DNA from: Bacteroidota bacterium
GTDB lineage: Bacteria; Bacteroidota; Bacteroidia; Sphingobacteriales; Sphingobacteriaceae
Length of the DNA stretch: 32,415 nucleotides
Assembly: GCA_013288235.1 (NCBI GenBank)
Contig: JABDCF010000008.1
Coordinates: 1-32,415 of the forward strand
Direction of reading: 5' to 3'
This document shows positions 1,594 to 12,701 of the stretch, one piece after another. Within the stretch, counting starts at the first letter, position 1, and each line of letters begins with the position of its first letter. The translations under genes and the position numbers were made by a program. Below the pieces are notes generated by a model, which saw only the letters and a list, made by a program, of their open reading frames with translations, ran no database searches and was not told the DNA's origin.

Positions 1594-2589
1594 ATGAAAA
1601 CATTATTGTTAACACTTTTCATCAGCTCATCGCTATTAACAACGGCATACTCGCAGATCAATATTGATACCTCAAGCATCGTTAAAAACGACCGCCAGTT
1701 ATACTCAGTAGTTGTATCCCAGGATGATAAGCTAATTTATGATCAGTATTTTAACGGAAAAAACAGCGGGGTACTTTTCAATAACCAGTCGCTCACCAAA
1801 AGCGTGTGCTCGTTATTGATAGGCATAGCCATTGATAAAGGTTATATCAGTTCGGTTGATGAGAAGTTAGTAAAATTTTTCCCGGAATTGAAGCAGGAGA
1901 CCGATAAACGAAAACAGGATATTACTATACGACAGGTGATGAACCAGGCCTCAGGACTCTGGCATGAGGACTTAACGCGCCTCGGCATTTACCTGAAACT
2001 GCCCGACCCTTCAGGATATATCCTTAACGCTCCATTAGTAAGCGAACCTGGCAAAGAGTTCCATTATAATAATGCGGCAAGCCACTTGCTATCAGTTATT
2101 ATCACCAAAAGCACCGGGATGAGTACCCTGGATTTTGCTAATAAATATCTGTTTGCTCCACTTGGGATAACCGATGTAAAGTGGAACAAAATGAACGATG
2201 GTTATTATGACGGCAGCGGGCTTTTAAGCGTACAAACCCACACGCAGGATATGAACAGGATAGGGGCATTGCTATTGCATAAAGGATATTTTAACGGCAA
2301 AAGCGTTGTGCCCGAAAAGTGGATAGATCAAATACTGCATCCCACAGTTTTTTACCATACCGATTGGGGCTTCCAGGGATCGACCTATGCGTTGTGCTGG
2401 TATCATTTTAATTATAACAATACACCTATAACGTACGGATTAGGCTGGGGCGGCCAGTTTGCGTTTGTTATACCTGCTAAGAAAGCGGTGGTAACAGTGA
2501 ATGAAGGTATTAGTGATTTTACGGCCGTAAAAGCATCGGTGCTGTTTTTAAGTAAGATATTTCCAATGGTTTATAATGGGCTGAATTGA
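1594..2589 (+). CDS. Secreted serine hydrolase, beta-lactamase class C / PBP4* fold
   Basis: The 331-residue protein starts with a Sec signal peptide (about residues 1-20, ending AYS-Q) and so should act in the periplasm or outside the cell. The body is of the beta-lactamase/transpeptidase-like family. The nucleophile motif SxxK is Ser66-Leu-Thr-Lys69 and the second motif YxN is Tyr158-Asn-Asn160. A glycine-rich stretch near the end (GLGWGGQF) lies where the third, KTG-like motif would be. Members are esterases, D-aminopeptidases or beta-lactamase-like enzymes, and motifs alone do not separate them. It is transcribed alone, towards the kai operon, with a strong hairpin between the two. Confidence 0.87.
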   Translation: MKTLLLTLFISSSLLTTAYSQINIDTSSIVKNDRQLYSVVVSQDDKLIYDQYFNGKNSGVLFNNQSLTKSVCSLLIGIAIDKGYISSVDEKLVKFFPELKQETDKRKQDITIRQVMNQASGLWHEDLTRLGIYLKLPDPSGYILNAPLVSEPGKEFHYNNAASHLLSVIITKSTGMSTLDFANKYLFAPLGITDVKWNKMNDGYYDGSGLLSVQTHTQDMNRIGALLLHKGYFNGKSVVPEKWIDQILHPTVFYHTDWGFQGSTYALCWYHFNYNNTPITYGLGWGGQFAFVIPAKKAVVTVNEGISDFTAVKASVLFLSKIFPMVYNGLN

Positions 2590-4954: not shown

Positions 4955-6700
4955 TTATCTTTTCTCCTTTTTCTTGACCGTATCTTCCTGCCCGCGCCGC
5001 AATCCCGTTATTTTCTGACGATTGCTCTCCTTTATTTTTTTAACCAGGTCTTCCTGGACGTATATCCTGTTAAGCTCCTCTTCGGCCGACTCGAATTCCG
5101 ATTGCAAACCTGCAATCTTTGCTTCCAAAACCTTTCGTTTACGGTCAATTTCCCGGTTTTTCAACTCGATTGCGCTGTCGCGGAGTGCAATTTCGGTTTG
5201 CTCCTGCAATTTTTGTGCCTCTCTTGCCGAGCCGGTTAAAATGCCTTCGGGGCCAAGATAAACATCCACCAGGTCAATCCCTTTGTCGGTAATTATGAAC
5301 TCCCTTACCTGGTTGGAGTGTTTCATCCCCCGTGATTTCATGATATACATGCCCCTGTTGCGCTCCCCGTTAAACTCAATATCTCTCACCGAAAGCCAGG
5401 TGTCCACTAATGAAGACACCCCCTCATCAGTTTGCTCATTAATTACAGTATTTAATGACAGGGCGGTAAACATTACTGTTAATTGTTCTTCTAACAGAAA
5501 ATCTATCAGCCTTATCAGCATGCTCTTTACTTCACTAACCGACCCTATTGTGACCAGGTTGGTAATCGGATCGAGAATAACGACATCGGGGTCAAACTTT
5601 TTAATAAGCTTATGCATGGCCACCAGATGCTCTTCCAGGCCATGGAGGGTAGGCCTTGATGCATGAAATTTTAACAAACCTTTATCCAGGTGTTTTTGCA
5701 AATGGATATCGATGGATTTCATATTACGGATGATCTGGTTTGGCGATTCTTCGAAAGCGAAATACAGGCAGCGCTTTTTTTGATTGCATGATTCGTTTGC
5801 CAGACAGGCTGCGATACTTGTTTTCCCTGTACCCGCAGTACCCGAAACCAGGATGCTGCTCCCTTTAAAAAAGCCCTTGCCCCCCAACATATTATCAAGG
5901 GCCGGGATGCCCGAAGGAATCCTTTCGGACGATACTTCTTTTTCCAGCTTTAACGAAGTTACCGGTAATACGGATATGCCGTCCTCATCAATTAAAAAAG
6001 GATACTCGTTGGTGCCATGTACGGTGCCCCTGTATTTTACAATCCTTAGGCGCCGGGTTGATATCTGGTTGATGACACGGTGGTCAAGCAGGATAACGCA
6101 GTCGGAAACGTATTCTTCCAGCCCCTGCCTCGTAAGTGAAACCCCATGGCCACGTTCGCCGGTTATTATAGCTGTAACGCCTTTTTCTTTTAACCAGTGG
6201 AATAGCCTGCGTAGTTCAGCACGTAATATGGCCTGGTTTGATAAGCCTGAGAAAAGGTTTTCGATGGTATCCAGTACCACCCGCTTAGCGCCGATACTGT
6301 CAATGGCATAGCCTAATCTTATGAACAGGCCGTCGAGGTCATATTCGCCGGTTTCTTCAATTTCACTGCGGTCAATGTGTACATAGTCTATTTTTATCTT
6401 TTTATCAGCCTGCAGTTTATGGAGGTCGAAACCGAGGGAAGCCACATTCATTGCCAGTTCTTCGCTTTTTTCTTCAAAAGCCATAAATACCCCCGGTTCA
6501 TTAAACTCTAAGGCGCCCCTTGTAATAAATTCGAGGGATAATAGCGTTTTGCCGCAGCCGGCCTCCCCGCATATAAGCGTAGGCCTGCCTTTGGGTATCC
6601 CTCCCTGGGTAATTTCATCCAGGCCGGTAATACCAGTCGGGGTTTTTGGTATTTGTGGATAAACAAAATTTCTTTTTTCTTTTTTTCGTTCTTTAGCCAT
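4955..6700 (-). CDS. kaiC: KaiC-family double RecA ATPase/kinase
   Basis: This 581-residue protein has two RecA/KaiC domains. CI (about 15-245) carries Walker A GEAGCGKT at 45-52 and the catalytic pair Glu76-Glu77. CII (about 255-480) carries GTAGTGKT at 287-294 and Glu317-Glu318. At the cyanobacterial phosphorylation region the sequence is TDEGVSSLVDT (424-434). The Ser431/Thr432 pair is therefore Ser429/Ser430, and Thr426 is kept as Thr424. The protein is longer than the 519-residue cyanobacterial form: residues about 490-581 are a highly charged, coiled-coil-like tail (Glu, Lys, Arg and Leu rich) where the KaiA-binding tail would be. It heads the operon with two kaiB genes and a kinase. 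I infer autophosphorylation and ATPase-driven ring switching. Circadian function is not shown. Confidence 0.95.
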   Translation of the reverse strand: MAKERKKEKRNFVYPQIPKTPTGITGLDEITQGGIPKGRPTLICGEAGCGKTLLSLEFITRGALEFNEPGVFMAFEEKSEELAMNVASLGFDLHKLQADKKIKIDYVHIDRSEIEETGEYDLDGLFIRLGYAIDSIGAKRVVLDTIENLFSGLSNQAILRAELRRLFHWLKEKGVTAIITGERGHGVSLTRQGLEEYVSDCVILLDHRVINQISTRRLRIVKYRGTVHGTNEYPFLIDEDGISVLPVTSLKLEKEVSSERIPSGIPALDNMLGGKGFFKGSSILVSGTAGTGKTSIAACLANESCNQKKRCLYFAFEESPNQIIRNMKSIDIHLQKHLDKGLLKFHASRPTLHGLEEHLVAMHKLIKKFDPDVVILDPITNLVTIGSVSEVKSMLIRLIDFLLEEQLTVMFTALSLNTVINEQTDEGVSSLVDTWLSVRDIEFNGERNRGMYIMKSRGMKHSNQVREFIITDKGIDLVDVYLGPEGILTGSAREAQKLQEQTEIALRDSAIELKNREIDRKRKVLEAKIAGLQSEFESAEEELNRIYVQEDLVKKIKESNRQKITGLRRGQEDTVKKKEKR

Positions 6701-8257: not shown

Positions 8258-8388
8258 CGGCGAAGCCTTCATGAACACCTTAAAAAAACAATAATGACGT
8301 GAATAATCCTCCCCCGGTTGGTGAGGACTTTATAAAAAGTCAGGTGCAGCTAAAGTCTCCCCAACCGGGGGAGATTTAGAGGGGGCTG
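8258..8388. repeat. Composite hairpin repeat (CTCCCC/GGGGAG family), copy 1
   Basis: This element of about 130 bp begins AACGGCGAAGCC and ends GATTTAGAGGGGGCT. Its right half holds a CTCCCCAACCGGGGGAG hairpin. The left half recurs inverted at 31573-31656 and the right half inverted at 11746-11847. The remaining gap up to the gene at 8591 is AT-rich and holds nothing else I can name. Confidence 0.65.
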
Positions 8389-8590
8389 CAAAAACCGCGT
8401 TTTAACGATGTATTTTTCAAAAATTATACACTAAATTTACCCTGCCAATTGAAAGCCCGCAATGGGTATAACTTTATACACAATTAAATTATTTTACCGC
8501 TACGCTCAGCTTTCGCCGAAAATATTTCGTTCTCATTAAATAAACCAATAGTTAACAAACCGGGATTGATTACCATAATAAACCAACTAT

Positions 8591-9970
8591 ATGTCACAAA
8601 ATTTATTTTTCAGTAAAGACAGCGAGGTAACGCCCGCTAACCTCGGTGAAGCCATCCAACAGGCCATTGAAATTGAGATCGCCACCATCCCCGTTTACCT
8701 TTACACCTATTATTCTATCAACCGCGTACCCGACCAGGATACTATCAGCGGTTCACTGGTACAGGAACTGGTAAAAAAAGGAGTGCCTGTTAAGGAAGCA
8801 AGCGAAAAGGCGCTTAAATTGTCGGCCGAGATCATGGTGTATGCCAATAAGGCCGGGGCGCTGATCATGAGTGTAGCTATTGAAGAAATGCTGCATATGG
8901 CGCTATCGTCAAACGTGAAACAGGCGCTTGCCGGGATGCCCGAACTGGTAGGCAAATCGCCAAGCGTATGGCCCGCCTGCCTGCCTGGCCACGAACCGGA
9001 GTTTCCCATCAACAGGGACAAATTTTCGCTTGACCAACTGATGACTTTCCTGAAAATTGAAAGCCCCGACCCATTGCCCGACCCTAAATTATTAGCGGCG
9101 CCGCTTCCATATAAAACAATAGGGCTTTTTTATCTGATGATAATAGAATGTATTCAAAATAACGAGCTTTCGTACAATACGCATTCGCCACAGCTGCTAC
9201 CAAATAATGGTTATTACGCTCAAAATAACATTGATACCGTTTATTACGATAAAGACCATAAGCCCCATTTCACAAATGCACCCGATAGCGGCGACCTTTT
9301 GTATGTACGCGACAGGGACTCGGCCATACATGCGCTCCATTGTATTATTGAGCAGGGCGAAGGTTTCCAGGGTCAGGGGTTTACACCGGATGGCGGAGTA
9401 GATTGTGGAATAGTGCTACCAGCTGATTATGATGATTTCGATAAAAAAGAACTGTCGCATTTTGAAAAGTTTGCGCAGATATATTGCCACTATAAAACCC
9501 TGGAAGATAAATTTAACGGGCTTGGCATAGGCAAAATCGATATCAGCAAATATTTTGTTGTTAACGTGCCTTTAAACCCTTCAACAGCTCACTATCCTGA
9601 CCACATAAGGCCGGTATCTGATTTTTTGAATGGGGTGTACACGTATTTATTCGTGATGGTGGAGAATTGCTACAGGCAGGCGGGCAACACACAGTACGAG
9701 ATATTCATGTTCGGCGTGCATAAATCAATGATCTTTATCCTTAATTCTGTTTGCGGTGATATCATGAAGCTTACCTATAAACACGGTGAGCAGGTGTACT
9801 ATGCAGCGCCAACTTTTGAGGATTATCCTTTTGGCTTACTATCAAGCCCAAAATCACAGCTGATAGACCTTTATACTGCTGCTGTGGCCGCTTACCCGGC
9901 CATCAGCTACCTTGGTCAAAGGGTTCAGGATTTGCCCGATGTACCATTGCAAAACCACGGCGAATTTTAA
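8591..9970 (+). CDS. Ferritin-like domain protein (VioB-type) at the head of the MNIO locus
   Basis: The N-terminal third of this 459-residue protein is a ferritin-like helical domain of the kind named after VioB (iminophenyl-pyruvate dimer synthase). EIEIATIPVYLYTYYSI (about 27-43) supplies a helix with a Glu ligand, and AIEEMLHMALSSN (96-108) supplies Glu98/Glu99 and His102. This pattern normally holds a di-iron or other metal centre. The remaining 300 residues are rich in Tyr, His and Asp and I cannot name a domain there. There is no signal peptide, so it is cytoplasmic. It lies 40 bp before the cysteine-rich gene and is probably its operon partner. I infer a redox or iron-dependent enzyme, possibly a further tailoring step. 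The substrate is unknown. Confidence 0.8.
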   Translation: MSQNLFFSKDSEVTPANLGEAIQQAIEIEIATIPVYLYTYYSINRVPDQDTISGSLVQELVKKGVPVKEASEKALKLSAEIMVYANKAGALIMSVAIEEMLHMALSSNVKQALAGMPELVGKSPSVWPACLPGHEPEFPINRDKFSLDQLMTFLKIESPDPLPDPKLLAAPLPYKTIGLFYLMIIECIQNNELSYNTHSPQLLPNNGYYAQNNIDTVYYDKDHKPHFTNAPDSGDLLYVRDRDSAIHALHCIIEQGEGFQGQGFTPDGGVDCGIVLPADYDDFDKKELSHFEKFAQIYCHYKTLEDKFNGLGIGKIDISKYFVVNVPLNPSTAHYPDHIRPVSDFLNGVYTYLFVMVENCYRQAGNTQYEIFMFGVHKSMIFILNSVCGDIMKLTYKHGEQVYYAAPTFEDYPFGLLSSPKSQLIDLYTAAVAAYPAISYLGQRVQDLPDVPLQNHGEF

Positions 9971-10010
9971 AGGAATAAACGAAACAGATAACAATTAAAA
10001 AACTGATATT

Positions 10011-10607
10011 ATGGCTATTATAAACTATAATCCAAATTTAACACTTTGCGGCGGTACGCCACCAGCTCCTGCGCCTGCTCCAGGCGCTGCTGCCCCGGTT
10101 GCAGCCACCCCTTCAGTGGAGCTTCACGTTTGCATGGGGTTAAATGCCTGTAAAGGACACGACCGTAACGGAACAAATAATTGCGCAGGCACGGGCTATT
10201 GCGCTACAGCCGAACAACATAATTGCCAGACATTAAATAATTGCCGAGGGCAGGGCGGTTGCGGCCTTTACGGCGATGCCGAGCAGCAAATGGTTCCCGG
10301 CGCCAACGAATGCGCATGGCAGGGTAGCTGTGCCGTACCTATCCAGGCCGAACGTTATAGCACCCTCGGCGACAACGTCAAAAAAAGCGTATGGCTGCTG
10401 GCCCGCAAACTATTTGAAGAAAGAATGAAGAAAGCAAAAAGGGTTGTTGGCCCGGCGCCGTTTAAATGCGGCCCCCCGCAAAACTGGCTTATATCCGTAC
10501 TTGGCTCCTATGATTCATGTGGTAACAGCGGCGATAAACGTTGCTCATTTGGGTTCAATAACCCCGAAGACCATGCTGAAGTGCTTTGTAAAGGGAAGAA
10601 GGAATGA
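10011..10607 (+). CDS. Cysteine-rich protein, candidate MNIO substrate (BufA2-like)
   Basis: The 198-residue protein has 14 cysteines. Nine lie between residues 41 and 107 and form five CX5C pairs: 41/47, 58/64, 72/78, 78/84 and 101/107. The wording CMGLNACKG, NNCAGTGYC and NNCRGQGGCG resembles the repeated CxGxNxCKG blocks of BufA2-type bufferin precursors. The N-terminus carries a Pro/Ala linker (about 17-33) and no Sec signal, unlike typical bufferins, so it appears cytoplasmic. The C-terminal part (about 115-198) is an amphipathic, basic region with four more cysteines at 153, 170, 178 and 193. It sits between the ferritin-like gene and the DUF692 oxidase gene. I infer that it is modified on Cys and may bind metal. 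It could instead be an unmodified metal-binding protein. Confidence 0.75.
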   Translation: MAIINYNPNLTLCGGTPPAPAPAPGAAAPVAATPSVELHVCMGLNACKGHDRNGTNNCAGTGYCATAEQHNCQTLNNCRGQGGCGLYGDAEQQMVPGANECAWQGSCAVPIQAERYSTLGDNVKKSVWLLARKLFEERMKKAKRVVGPAPFKCGPPQNWLISVLGSYDSCGNSGDKRCSFGFNNPEDHAEVLCKGKKE

Positions 10608-10803
10608 TTTCGGAATTTAGATTTTCGATTTCGGATTGTTTTATTTCGGAATTTGGATTTTCGAGATCTTTAACAAAGAGTGAAGTTCAAGTCCTCTCCT
10701 TTGGAGAGGATTTAGGTGAGGCCAGATGGTGATTTCGGATTTCGGATTTTCGTCCCGATAGCTATCGGGATCGAAATGTTTGTATGGTGTATAAGTAAAA
10801 GGA
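10608..10803. repeat. Spacer of simple and palindromic repeats within the MNIO locus
   Basis: This 196-bp gap holds several irregular repeats of TTTCGGATTT/TTTCGGAATTT (10608-10660 and 10732-10752), a partial CTCTCC...GGAGAGGATTTAGGTG hairpin repeat (10690-10722), and a perfect 18-bp palindrome TCCCGATAGCTATCGGGA at 10753-10770. The TTTCGGATTT words recur at 31470-31505. The palindrome could act as a hairpin in the mRNA between the cysteine-rich gene and the oxidase gene. Confidence 0.6.
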
Positions 10804-11745
10804 ATGGACGGAAACAAAGACAAATACAGCGATACAGTTAAAAACCTGCCCAACCCGGGTCTTGGCTTGGGGTTGCGAAGCAAACATTTTAACTATATCC
10901 TTGAGCATAACCCGGCTGTTGATTGGTTCGAGGTGATCTCGGAGAACTTTATGGATTCCGGTGGCAGGCCGCGCCATGTGTTGAGGCAGATCGCTGAAAA
11001 ATACCCTGTTGTAATGCATGGGGTATCGCTTTCTATCGGCAGTACCGATCCGCTGAACTGGGAATATCTTACAAAATTAAAAAACCTTGCCCATGAGGTA
11101 AAACCTATTTGGATAAGCGACCATTTATGCTGGACAGGCGTAAACAGTTTGAATACGCACGATTTGTTGCCGGTGATATTGAATGAAGAATCGTTAAAAC
11201 ATATCTGTAACCGTATTAACCAAATACAGGACTTTTTGGAACGCCCTGTTGTTTTCGAGAACCCAAGCACCTACCTAACTTTCAAACAATCCACAATTGC
11301 CGAATGGGATTTTTTACGCTACATGTCCGAAGAAACTGGCTGCGGCTTATTGCTTGATGTGAATAATGTATATGTATCCGCTTTCAATAATGATTTTGAC
11401 CCGGTACACTACATCCATCAATTACCGCACGATCGTATCGTGCAAATGCATATTGCCGGACACCAGCATTGCGGCACCCATATCATCGATACCCACGACA
11501 GGAACGTAGTAAATGATGTATGGAACTTGTTTAACTTAGCCTGGCAACTAACCGGCGGTGTAGCTACATTGCTTGAATGGGACAGCAATATCCCCGATTT
11601 TGAAGCCTATCATGCAGAGCTGTTGAAAGCAAAACAATATATGAGCGGTTTGGCGGGAATTAATGATATTGCTGAAAAACTGCCGGACGAAGAAGCCGCA
11701 GTTTCAAACCCGGTGGATTTTTTGGTGAGCGATATTTTGGGATAA
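10804..11745 (+). CDS. DUF692 multinuclear non-heme iron oxidase (MNIO)
   Basis: This 313-residue protein is a full DUF692 TIM-barrel enzyme of the MbnB/BufB/TglH/ChrH class, which uses two or three iron ions to oxidise cysteine residues of a peptide. Expected metal ligands and active-site motifs are all visible: Glu43 and Glu47 in FEVISENF, His72 in MHGVSLSIGS, Asp106-His107, Glu152-Asn153 in FENPSTY, Asp185 and Asn187 in LLDVNNVYVSA, His216 and His220 in HIAGH, Asp229 and His231 in IDTHD, and Glu258 in LLEWD. It follows the cysteine-rich gene and precedes a DUF2063 gene, the standard partner in methanobactin and bufferin loci. The reaction and product are inferred from these families, and the enzyme class is firm. 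Confidence 0.93.
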   Translation: MDGNKDKYSDTVKNLPNPGLGLGLRSKHFNYILEHNPAVDWFEVISENFMDSGGRPRHVLRQIAEKYPVVMHGVSLSIGSTDPLNWEYLTKLKNLAHEVKPIWISDHLCWTGVNSLNTHDLLPVILNEESLKHICNRINQIQDFLERPVVFENPSTYLTFKQSTIAEWDFLRYMSEETGCGLLLDVNNVYVSAFNNDFDPVHYIHQLPHDRIVQMHIAGHQHCGTHIIDTHDRNVVNDVWNLFNLAWQLTGGVATLLEWDSNIPDFEAYHAELLKAKQYMSGLAGINDIAEKLPDEEAAVSNPVDFLVSDILG

Positions 11746-11847
11746 AGCCCCCTCTAAATCTCCCCGCCTGCTGGCGGAGAGACTTTAGCTGCATCTGCGC
11801 TCTTTTTTAAGTCCTCTCCAACCGGTGGAGGATTTAGGTGGGGGCTT
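11746..11847. repeat. Composite hairpin repeat, copy 2 (inverted)
   Basis: The element runs from AGCCCCCTCTAAATCTCCCC to GATTTAGGTGGGGGCT. It is the reverse complement of the right half of the repeat at 8258-8388, sharing GCAGCTAAAGTCTC and AGATTTAGAGGGGGCT. Its two ends form an imperfect terminal inverted repeat and each half folds as a CTCC...GGAG hairpin. It occupies nearly the whole gap between the DUF692 and DUF2063 genes. Confidence 0.7.
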
Positions 11848-11873
11848 TACGCGTGTTTAATAAATTATAATCA

Positions 11874-12701
11874 ATGGATGAAACCAACTTTTCGTTAACA
11901 CAACTGCAAAACTGGATGCAGGGCATGCTGATACAGCATGTGCCTGTATCAACTGAATTGGTTGAGGTAAGCCAGGTTGTTAATGCATCGAAACGGTTAA
12001 GCGCTGTAAAGCATTTGGATATTTACCGGCAGAGTTATATTGCCCGGCTGCGGGCTTGTATGCAAAACCAGTTTGGTGCATTGGCCTATGCGCTGGGCAA
12101 CGAGCTTTTTGAATTATTTGCCGATCAGTACCTTGATGCCAATCCGTCCGGCAGTTATACCCTAAACACGCTCGGACAAAAATTCCCGGCATTTCTTGAA
12201 CAAACCCGGCCTGATGCGGGCGAGGAGGAGAAAGAGACATGGCCCGATTTTATGATAGAGCTTGCCGGATTTGAATATGCACTATCAGAAATATTTGATG
12301 AACAGGCAATTGAAAACAATACTACCCCAACTAATGACGCGCCTGATGAATTATTAAAACTTACCCCGGTTTTTCACTTGTTCCATCACCGTTTTCCAAT
12401 CTGTAATTATTACCTGGAGTTTAGCCAGGGCAAGGAGCCAGACTTGCCATTCCCCGAGGAAAGCTTTTGCGCAGTTACGCGCCGTGCCTGTAAACTGGGC
12501 TTGTTTAACATCCGGGGTGCGCAATACTATTTCCTGTTGAATATGCAGCAGGGTAGTACAGTTGAAGAGGCAAAAGGCGAACTTGTTAAAACCTTCAATT
12601 TTAGCAGGACGGAACTGGATAAAGTTTGGATTGACTGGCGGCGAAATTTCATTGCTTCTGGTTTTTTCTGTTTAAAAGAAGCTGATAAGTTTGGCAAATA
12701 A
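11874..12701 (+). CDS. DUF2063 partner protein of the MNIO enzyme (BufC/MbnC-like)
   Basis: The 275-residue protein shows the DUF2063 layout: an N-terminal helix LTQLQNWMQGML (8-19), the signature HLDIYRQSYIARLRACMQNQFGALAYALG (about 48-76), FADQYLDANPSGSYTLNTLG and FPAFLEQTRP, then an acidic middle (FMIELAGFEYALSEIFDEQ). A C-terminal winged-helix-like part (about 195-275, VEEAKGELVKTF) follows. In methanobactin and bufferin systems this family presents the precursor peptide to the DUF692 enzyme. The name DNA-binding domain protein in databases is historical. It is separated from the oxidase gene by 128 bp containing a hairpin repeat, and is closed by a terminator at 12745-12788. No signal peptide is seen. 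Confidence 0.88.
   Translation: MDETNFSLTQLQNWMQGMLIQHVPVSTELVEVSQVVNASKRLSAVKHLDIYRQSYIARLRACMQNQFGALAYALGNELFELFADQYLDANPSGSYTLNTLGQKFPAFLEQTRPDAGEEEKETWPDFMIELAGFEYALSEIFDEQAIENNTTPTNDAPDELLKLTPVFHLFHHRFPICNYYLEFSQGKEPDLPFPEESFCAVTRRACKLGLFNIRGAQYYFLLNMQQGSTVEEAKGELVKTFNFSRTELDKVWIDWRRNFIASGFFCLKEADKFGK

Follow-up and report, generated by a model that had tools for sequence, protein, structure and literature searches.

A ferritin-like protein is a near-constant part of MNIO gene cassettes that encode a signal-less cysteine-rich protein

Results

The window analysed here is a 32,415-nucleotide stretch of a Bacteroidota genome (contig JABDCF010000008.1). Its positions 8591-12701 hold four plus-strand genes, which reading frames and domain searches identify, in order, as a ferritin-like protein (FLP), a cysteine-rich protein (CYS), a DUF692 oxidase (MNIO) and the DUF2063 partner of that oxidase. 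An earlier sequence-only reading had proposed a four-gene MNIO locus, and all four frames lie in the places and on the strand that it gave. FLP and CYS are separated by 40 bp, and the two remaining spacers measure 196 and 128 bp (9 and 14 bp in the related locus L004).

The MNIO gene (10804-11745, 313 aa) encodes a member of the bufferin-maturase (BufB) family, with 356 bits against the Pfam cut-off of 25 for PF05114 and 357.9 bits against the cut-off of 310 for the NCBIfam BufB maturase model NF050167. Residues H72, D106, H107, E152, N153, D185, H216, D229, H231 and E258 are invariant in 57/57 aligned rows, and most of these columns are identical in at least one of the 3bww, TglH and MbnB chains. 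We take them to be the metal site, which presumably binds iron. The complete DUF692 enzyme with its metal ligands, as first read from the letters, is borne out by both cut-offs and by these invariant positions. The same holds for its DUF2063 partner (11874-12701, 275 aa), which reaches 56 bits against the PF09836 cut-off of 27.2 and is PME-type 1 under the published definition. Among the 55 partner proteins of the related loci, 29 were submitted to the domain scan; PF09836 was found at E up to 0.001 in 29/29, including all 27 that are linked to FLP (27/27).

FLP (8591-9970, 459 aa) scores 119.8 bits against the curated Pfam cut-off of 22.3 for PF12902, a family that includes oxidative coupling enzymes such as VioB. 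The label "VioB-type" given to it earlier therefore holds at the level of the domain and fails at the level of VioB itself, for which the NCBIfam equivalog model yields 16.8 bits where 1250 are required. A VioB-like pathway was rejected on this score, and because no other gene is widely conserved beside the cassette. Within the family, E98, E99, H102, E257 and H290 are kept in 55/55 rows, and E29 and E287 in 54/55. These columns fit the two E...ExxH half-sites of a diiron ferritin-like protein, so that E29, E98 or E99 with H102, E257, E287 and H290 are candidate ligands.

The solved structure nearest to the FLP family is 3hl1, Caulobacter CC_0557 (sequence profile E 8.9e-20). For the comparison of folds we used a model of a fused relative from Pleionea in place of the window FLP; it matches 3hl1 with a Foldseek E of 1.3e-4 and a VIA-align Z of 22.9 (264 residues, 2.9 A), and bacterioferritin and Dps chains with Z of about 12 and below. 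Cage ferritins and Dps were rejected as nearest kin because, among the folds listed, their matches fall some 10 Z units below that of 3hl1. In a tree with long branches, cassette FLPs and three FLP-CYS fusions (L048, L158 and L185) separate from six PF12902 paralogues with a support of 95; four of 12 additional rows intended for this tree (L164, L165, L184 and the fusion L140) and eight cassette rows (near-identical ones and L059) had been left out. An Andreprevotia protein (L168:1186-3420, plus strand) joins a PF12902 domain to Fer4_19 and a pair of CDGSH iron-sulphur domains.

CYS (10011-10607), the predicted MNIO substrate, has 198 residues, of which 14 are cysteines, and shows CX5C spacing at C41-C47 and C101-C107, as had been described. 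It has no Pfam match at E up to 1. Its core (10131-10331) holds eight cysteines, C41, C47, C64, C72, C78, C84, C101 and C107, that are invariant in 58/58 rows, together with a class-specific Met42. H39, G43, L44, N45, K48, H70, W128, A131 and R132 are among the further residues invariant in all 58 rows. The unfused family measures about 155-277 aa with 8-22 cysteines. As this conservation extends over roughly 100 residues, CYS seems to be folded and to function whole. A weak model (57-row alignment, mean predicted local distance difference test score (pLDDT) 59.8) places a helix at about residues 127-141. Alignment A5 was used; A1 and A6 were dropped since CYS rows fell on or inside the FLP half. 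In agreement with the sequence-only reading, no export signal was seen in the window CYS by a home-made rule of hydropathy and RRx[F/L], applied in place of SignalP (L059 and L158 unscored): RRx[F/L] is absent, and the highest mean hydropathy of any 13 residues ahead of the first core cysteine is 1.00. Plasmid records gave no CYS match.

The window CYS matches the NCBIfam BufA2 model (NF050166) weakly, with 17.5 bits against a cut-off of 60; 54/57 CYS rows nevertheless match it with an E of 0.1 or lower, the best being 5.9e-7. As sub-threshold BufA2 matches include Buf1-like proteins, only the ten records above the cut-off were taken as the Buf2 set. Aligned profile to profile, CYS and Buf2 reach an hhalign probability of 92.5 and a score of 39.3 over 35 columns, a score attained by 0/200 column shuffles (best 24.3) and by 0/200 shuffles with the cysteine columns held (best 26.3). 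To judge from these profiles, the core of CYS and the Buf2 bufferins are divergent relatives; CYS differs by an insert with an extra cysteine, further segments and a C-terminal extension. In five marine Bacteroidota loci (L027, L029, L030, L031 and L033), the CYS core is preceded by three or four N-terminal NGCG units of NGCGSS/NGCGGS-like sequence, each with a Cys followed by Gly, as at the modified KCG sites of fontiphorin.

To find relatives, one genome per species was scanned with CYS alone, using peptide patterns from the window protein, which gave 58 loci. One of the patterns holds Met42, so that this set favours the FLP-linked class, and CYS-profile searches were run to offset the bias, with G253 and G259 as centres. 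The cassette includes MNIO and DUF2063 matches at 58/58 loci (in pieces in L056 and L059, some cut by a contig end), and FLP at 55/58, fused in L048 and partial in L059. L056 from Kitasatospora is a remnant locus with an FLP fragment, and FLP is missing only from two planctomycete loci, L057 and L058. Besides these two, the loci span Bacteroidota, Pseudomonadota, Acidobacteriota and Actinomycetota, and occur in two gene orders, FLP being first in 48 and last in seven, all of them from Actinomycetota. The four families thus stay together far outside the genus and far beyond chance, and the sequence-only reading, which a lack of co-occurrence in relatives would have refuted, withstood that test. 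In the decayed Kitasatospora copy (L056:6022-7174), the CYS piece runs into the MNIO piece and the DUF2063 piece into the FLP piece.

The CYS profile matched seven of 395 Bacteroidota genomes and two of 396 Actinomycetota genomes, with FLP in the cassette in 7/7 and 2/2; of its three matches in 274 Gammaproteobacteria, G253 (Pleionea) and G740 were examined and the weakest, G685, was left out. G099 and G957 are apparently the genomes of L018 and L028, and some matches overlap the 58 loci. Conversely, the FLP profile found close FLPs in five of 247 Bacteroidota genomes, with CYS and MNIO adjoining in 5/5, and also remote PF12902 paralogues, which lack adjoining CYS and MNIO. BufA2 gave only two weak, frame-broken matches in 148 Bacteroidota genomes. 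When the other frames of the 58 loci were clustered without annotation (over 80 aa, above 50 bits), three families were common to at least four loci and at most 10, all confined to Mucilaginibacter and near relatives bar one Flavobacterium locus. No gene is widely conserved beside the cassette, so that it appears to move on its own. Within the signal-less CYS branch, FLP is present almost throughout.

FLP and CYS are also found as one protein. PF12902 lies in the first half of four fusions from divergent loci, each with an adjoining MNIO gene: L048 from Pleionea (675 aa, CYS half 184 bits against the CYS profile), L140 from planctomycete G364 (633 aa, 99 bits), L158 from gammaproteobacterium G740 (655 aa, 30 bits) and a second locus of Saccharothrix carnea (L185:466-2403, minus strand; 645 aa, 37 bits). 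Position 42 is Met in L140 and Gln in L158 and L185. On the MNIO tree, L048, L140 and L158 require three changes, at least two of them on supported branches; L185 lies outside the tree, and its similarity to L158 suggests a further fused subfamily.

The CYS profile further matched 39 of 294 Planctomycetota genomes. Of these 39, 17 supplied the 19 regions that we read, to which were added L057 (from G254, likewise among the 39) and L058. With a limit of E 0.001, the FLP profile found no match in 18/19 of the fetched regions and in L057 and L058, which makes 20 loci (L141-L157, L159, L057 and L058); the PF12902 search covered G254, G364 and G449. MNIO is present in 19/20 and DUF2063 in 18/20, so FLP seems dispensable for maturation of the core in this group. 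Near the N-terminus, 19/20 of these CYS relatives show a signal like that of twin-arginine translocation (Tat), RRx[F/L] followed by a hydrophobic stretch. RRx[F/L] occurs in 1/59 FLP-linked CYS rows (L048 and L056 included), namely in an upstream frame extension of L051 with no hydrophobic stretch after it. Hydropathy alone overlaps slightly, the highest FLP-linked value being 1.45 (outside the fusion) and the lowest exported one 1.33. The planctomycete relatives are thus a possible Tat-exported bufferin branch. Most of those with the twin-arginine-like signal also show a lipobox-like cysteine by eye.

All eight core cysteines are kept in 20/20 exported rows. Met42, present in 56/56 FLP-linked rows (L048 included), occurs in 0/20 exported rows, and the segments around G88 and R115 of the FLP-linked CYS are missing from 20/20; Met42 and these segments are candidates for contact with FLP. 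Taken over 89 rows, among which Buf2 rows were labelled exported by eye, 60 have FLP and no signal and 29 have a signal and no FLP. In the MNIO tree, a quick tree with several long branches from which extra records of already present genomes were left out, Buf1-type rows are distinguished from Buf2 (95) and from a third group (79 rows; 95 in the Shimodaira-Hasegawa-like approximate likelihood ratio test, as for Buf2) that contains all FLP-linked, fused and exported rows. Rooted on the Buf1-type rows, the third group joins the Buf2 maturases. A tree constrained to keep the FLP-linked and fused rows together had a higher likelihood than the unconstrained quick one (p of 0.913 in the approximately unbiased test), which is compatible with the FLP link having arisen once.

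The neighbours of the cassette on both sides lie on the opposite strand, a DUF3078 gene upstream and a DUF4142 gene downstream. Short related intergenic sequences occur upstream of and inside the cassette, at 8310-8390, 10690-10725 and 11747-11850, with CTCTCC...GGAG, TTTAGGTGAGGC and the reverse complement of TTTAGGTGAGGC. Elsewhere in the window, 4955-6700 on the minus strand encodes a protein of 581 aa that has two stretches of the KaiC ATPase type. In the source genome (4.37 Mb, 70.57% complete), a second CYS was not found, and there is one further, remote MNIO (L002:814-2277, minus strand, in G000:C39), a 487-aa protein with a C-terminal extension that belongs to a separate MNIO system. 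Just upstream of it, an 82-aa frame (2292-2540, minus strand) with a CPTC motif may be the substrate of that MNIO. The genome also holds a PF12902 paralogue (L070:1252-2400, plus strand, in G000:C104) whose neighbour resembles a GMC-type oxidoreductase by eye; a similar pair is seen in L069.

Discussion

We tentatively read the cassette, with a confidence that stops a little short of even, as a self-contained cytosolic branch of the Buf2 kind in which CYS, once modified by MNIO and its partner, is retained as a metal-binding or redox partner of FLP, the working enzyme. From what is known of the families, MNIO and the DUF2063 partner would oxidise one or more of the conserved CYS cysteines, most likely to 5-thiooxazoles by analogy with the characterised pairs. 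The entire CYS protein, as opposed to a clipped peptide, would remain in the cytosol and associate one-to-one with the diiron FLP, CYS being the metal-binding or redox subunit; this last step is suggested by the fusions and the constant linkage. In the exported relatives, the same core would be sent out by the Tat-like signal, with no FLP found. The Andreprevotia protein shows the layout of the FLP-CYS fusions, but with a known redox-type domain, and we count it in favour of this reading. A more specific version, in which MNIO and its partner mature a stable subunit by giving CYS a metal or redox centre of modified cysteine, with this subunit dedicated to the FLP diiron enzyme, is conceivable but rather doubtful. 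If true, the four genes would be an enzyme, its cofactor-bearing subunit and two maturases, a logic like that of other protein-derived-cofactor enzymes, and MNIO enzymes would make more than secreted metallophores.

Several observations weigh against CYS as a standing partner of FLP. E287 is apparently not conserved in fusion L140, as read by eye. In L158 and L185 the CYS half is a remote match, and three and two of the eight core cysteines, respectively, are missing from it in the alignment. L059 has a partial FLP, with MNIO and DUF2063 in pieces, and L056 is a remnant. The CYS half of the Pleionea fusion model is mostly under pLDDT 50, so that no interface was read from the structure models. 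The contrast between FLP and signal comes down to one supported independent pair, or two when all branches are counted, and such a single supported split may reflect ancestry rather than function. Finally, enzyme-substrate fusions exist elsewhere, for example in borosins, and the fusions therefore leave room for FLP as a tailoring enzyme.

That alternative seems to us less likely, though a serious competitor. In it the diiron FLP would act after the MNIO pair as a second oxygenase, the cytosolic CYS would end up modified twice, and the fusions would join enzyme and substrate. It would draw on the oxidative coupling enzymes of the PF12902 family and the weak VioB model match, on the conserved candidate diiron ligands, and on the close FLPs of Bacteroidota genomes, which lie beside CYS and MNIO in 5/5 cases; the conserved segments of FLP-linked CYS may be a docking site. 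However, a one-to-one fused enzyme and substrate would be wasteful, no MNIO cluster with such a step was met in the literature searched, and the conservation of CYS (W128, R132 and others) over its roughly 100 residues is unlike that of a leader and core.

Still less probable is a cytosolic metal buffer or detoxification system, in which copper or another metal is chelated by modified CYS, and FLP has a ferritin- or Dps-like role in metal storage or oxidation. The kinship of CYS with Buf2, the copper binding of thiooxazole peptides (described in PMC13097082) and the ferritin fold of the fused Pleionea relative are consistent with it. The FLP half of that relative, however, is closest to 3hl1 and much less close to bacterioferritin and Dps, and the clustered flanks hold no gene of any kind that is widely conserved beside the cassette. 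Chance or passive linkage, with FLP a mere upstream neighbour, can practically be dismissed: we found nothing for it, and the 55/58 loci, four phyla, two gene orders, four fusions and absence of any other widely shared neighbour rule it out.

Of other PF12902 proteins, VioB and CC_0557 share the domain with FLP, and 3hl1 matches the FLP family by both profile and fold; VioB differs in that the cut-off of its model lies far above the FLP score, and the function of CC_0557 is absent from the 3hl1 entry title. PF12902 genes are also described near lodA/lodB quinoprotein genes in fungi (PMC4417212). As here, the protein there lies near one that needs a dedicated post-translational modifier, but the modified protein and the modifier are others, and the case is an analogy and not kinship.

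Among the closest known systems are the Buf2 bufferins, BufA2 with BufB and BufC. They share with the window an MNIO above the BufB cut-off, a DUF2063 partner, the order precursor-MNIO-partner and the core motif CxGxNxCKGH...C.TA....C.....C(K/R)GxG. CYS differs from Buf2 proteins in that no Sec signal is seen, in its length (mostly 150-280 aa), and in its extra cysteines, inserts and C-terminal helix; it falls far under the BufA2 cut-off, it is cytosolic by prediction, and its cassette adds FLP. Bufferins and oxazolins carry Sec signals, according to a published survey (PMC12452194). The same survey describes adjamnio-I precursors as cysteine-rich and signal-less, of 122-293 aa with 8-21 cysteines, and encoded directly before MNIO. 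Length, cysteine number and position fit, and our guess, from a comparison of descriptions, is that the CYS family is adjamnio-I. The major adjamnio-I organisation is reported there with PME-type 2 partners, which lack the DUF2063 signature, in contrast to our cassette with PF09836 in every partner scanned. The survey also correlates signal-less MNIO substrates with PME-type 2 partners, and the CYS branch runs counter to this, being signal-less yet having the DUF2063 signature in its FLP-linked partners. "Ferritin" is absent from the main text of PMC12452194. The survey admitted unrelated genes only within 10 bp, and all frames for smaller MNIO clusters; given the 40-bp gap between FLP and CYS, FLP may have been missed there.

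The word is likewise absent from the main text of PMC13097082, and no paper linking a ferritin-like gene to MNIO (DUF692), to ribosomally synthesised and post-translationally modified peptides or to thiooxazole was met in the literature searched, most subscription journals lying outside it. Relative to that literature the pairing of FLP with MNIO is new, and the precursor family is probably already in print as adjamnio-I. The suggestion of a possible new branch thus survives for a signal-less Buf2 relative with a near-constant FLP, and probably not for the precursor. In all characterised cases, MNIO/DUF2063 pairs form 5-thiooxazoles on cysteines and the products generally bind copper, according to PMC13097082, in which 5-thiooxazole is reported to absorb near 305 nm. 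The captophorins covered there (fontiphorin, gonophorin and bufferin 1) share with the cassette an MNIO and a DUF2063 partner acting on cysteines; they differ in being products of copper stress. The cassette raises the question of whether MNIO can make an enzyme's cofactor, since this branch would tie the modified protein to an intracellular iron enzyme, whereas the characterised MNIO/DUF2063 products are copper ligands.

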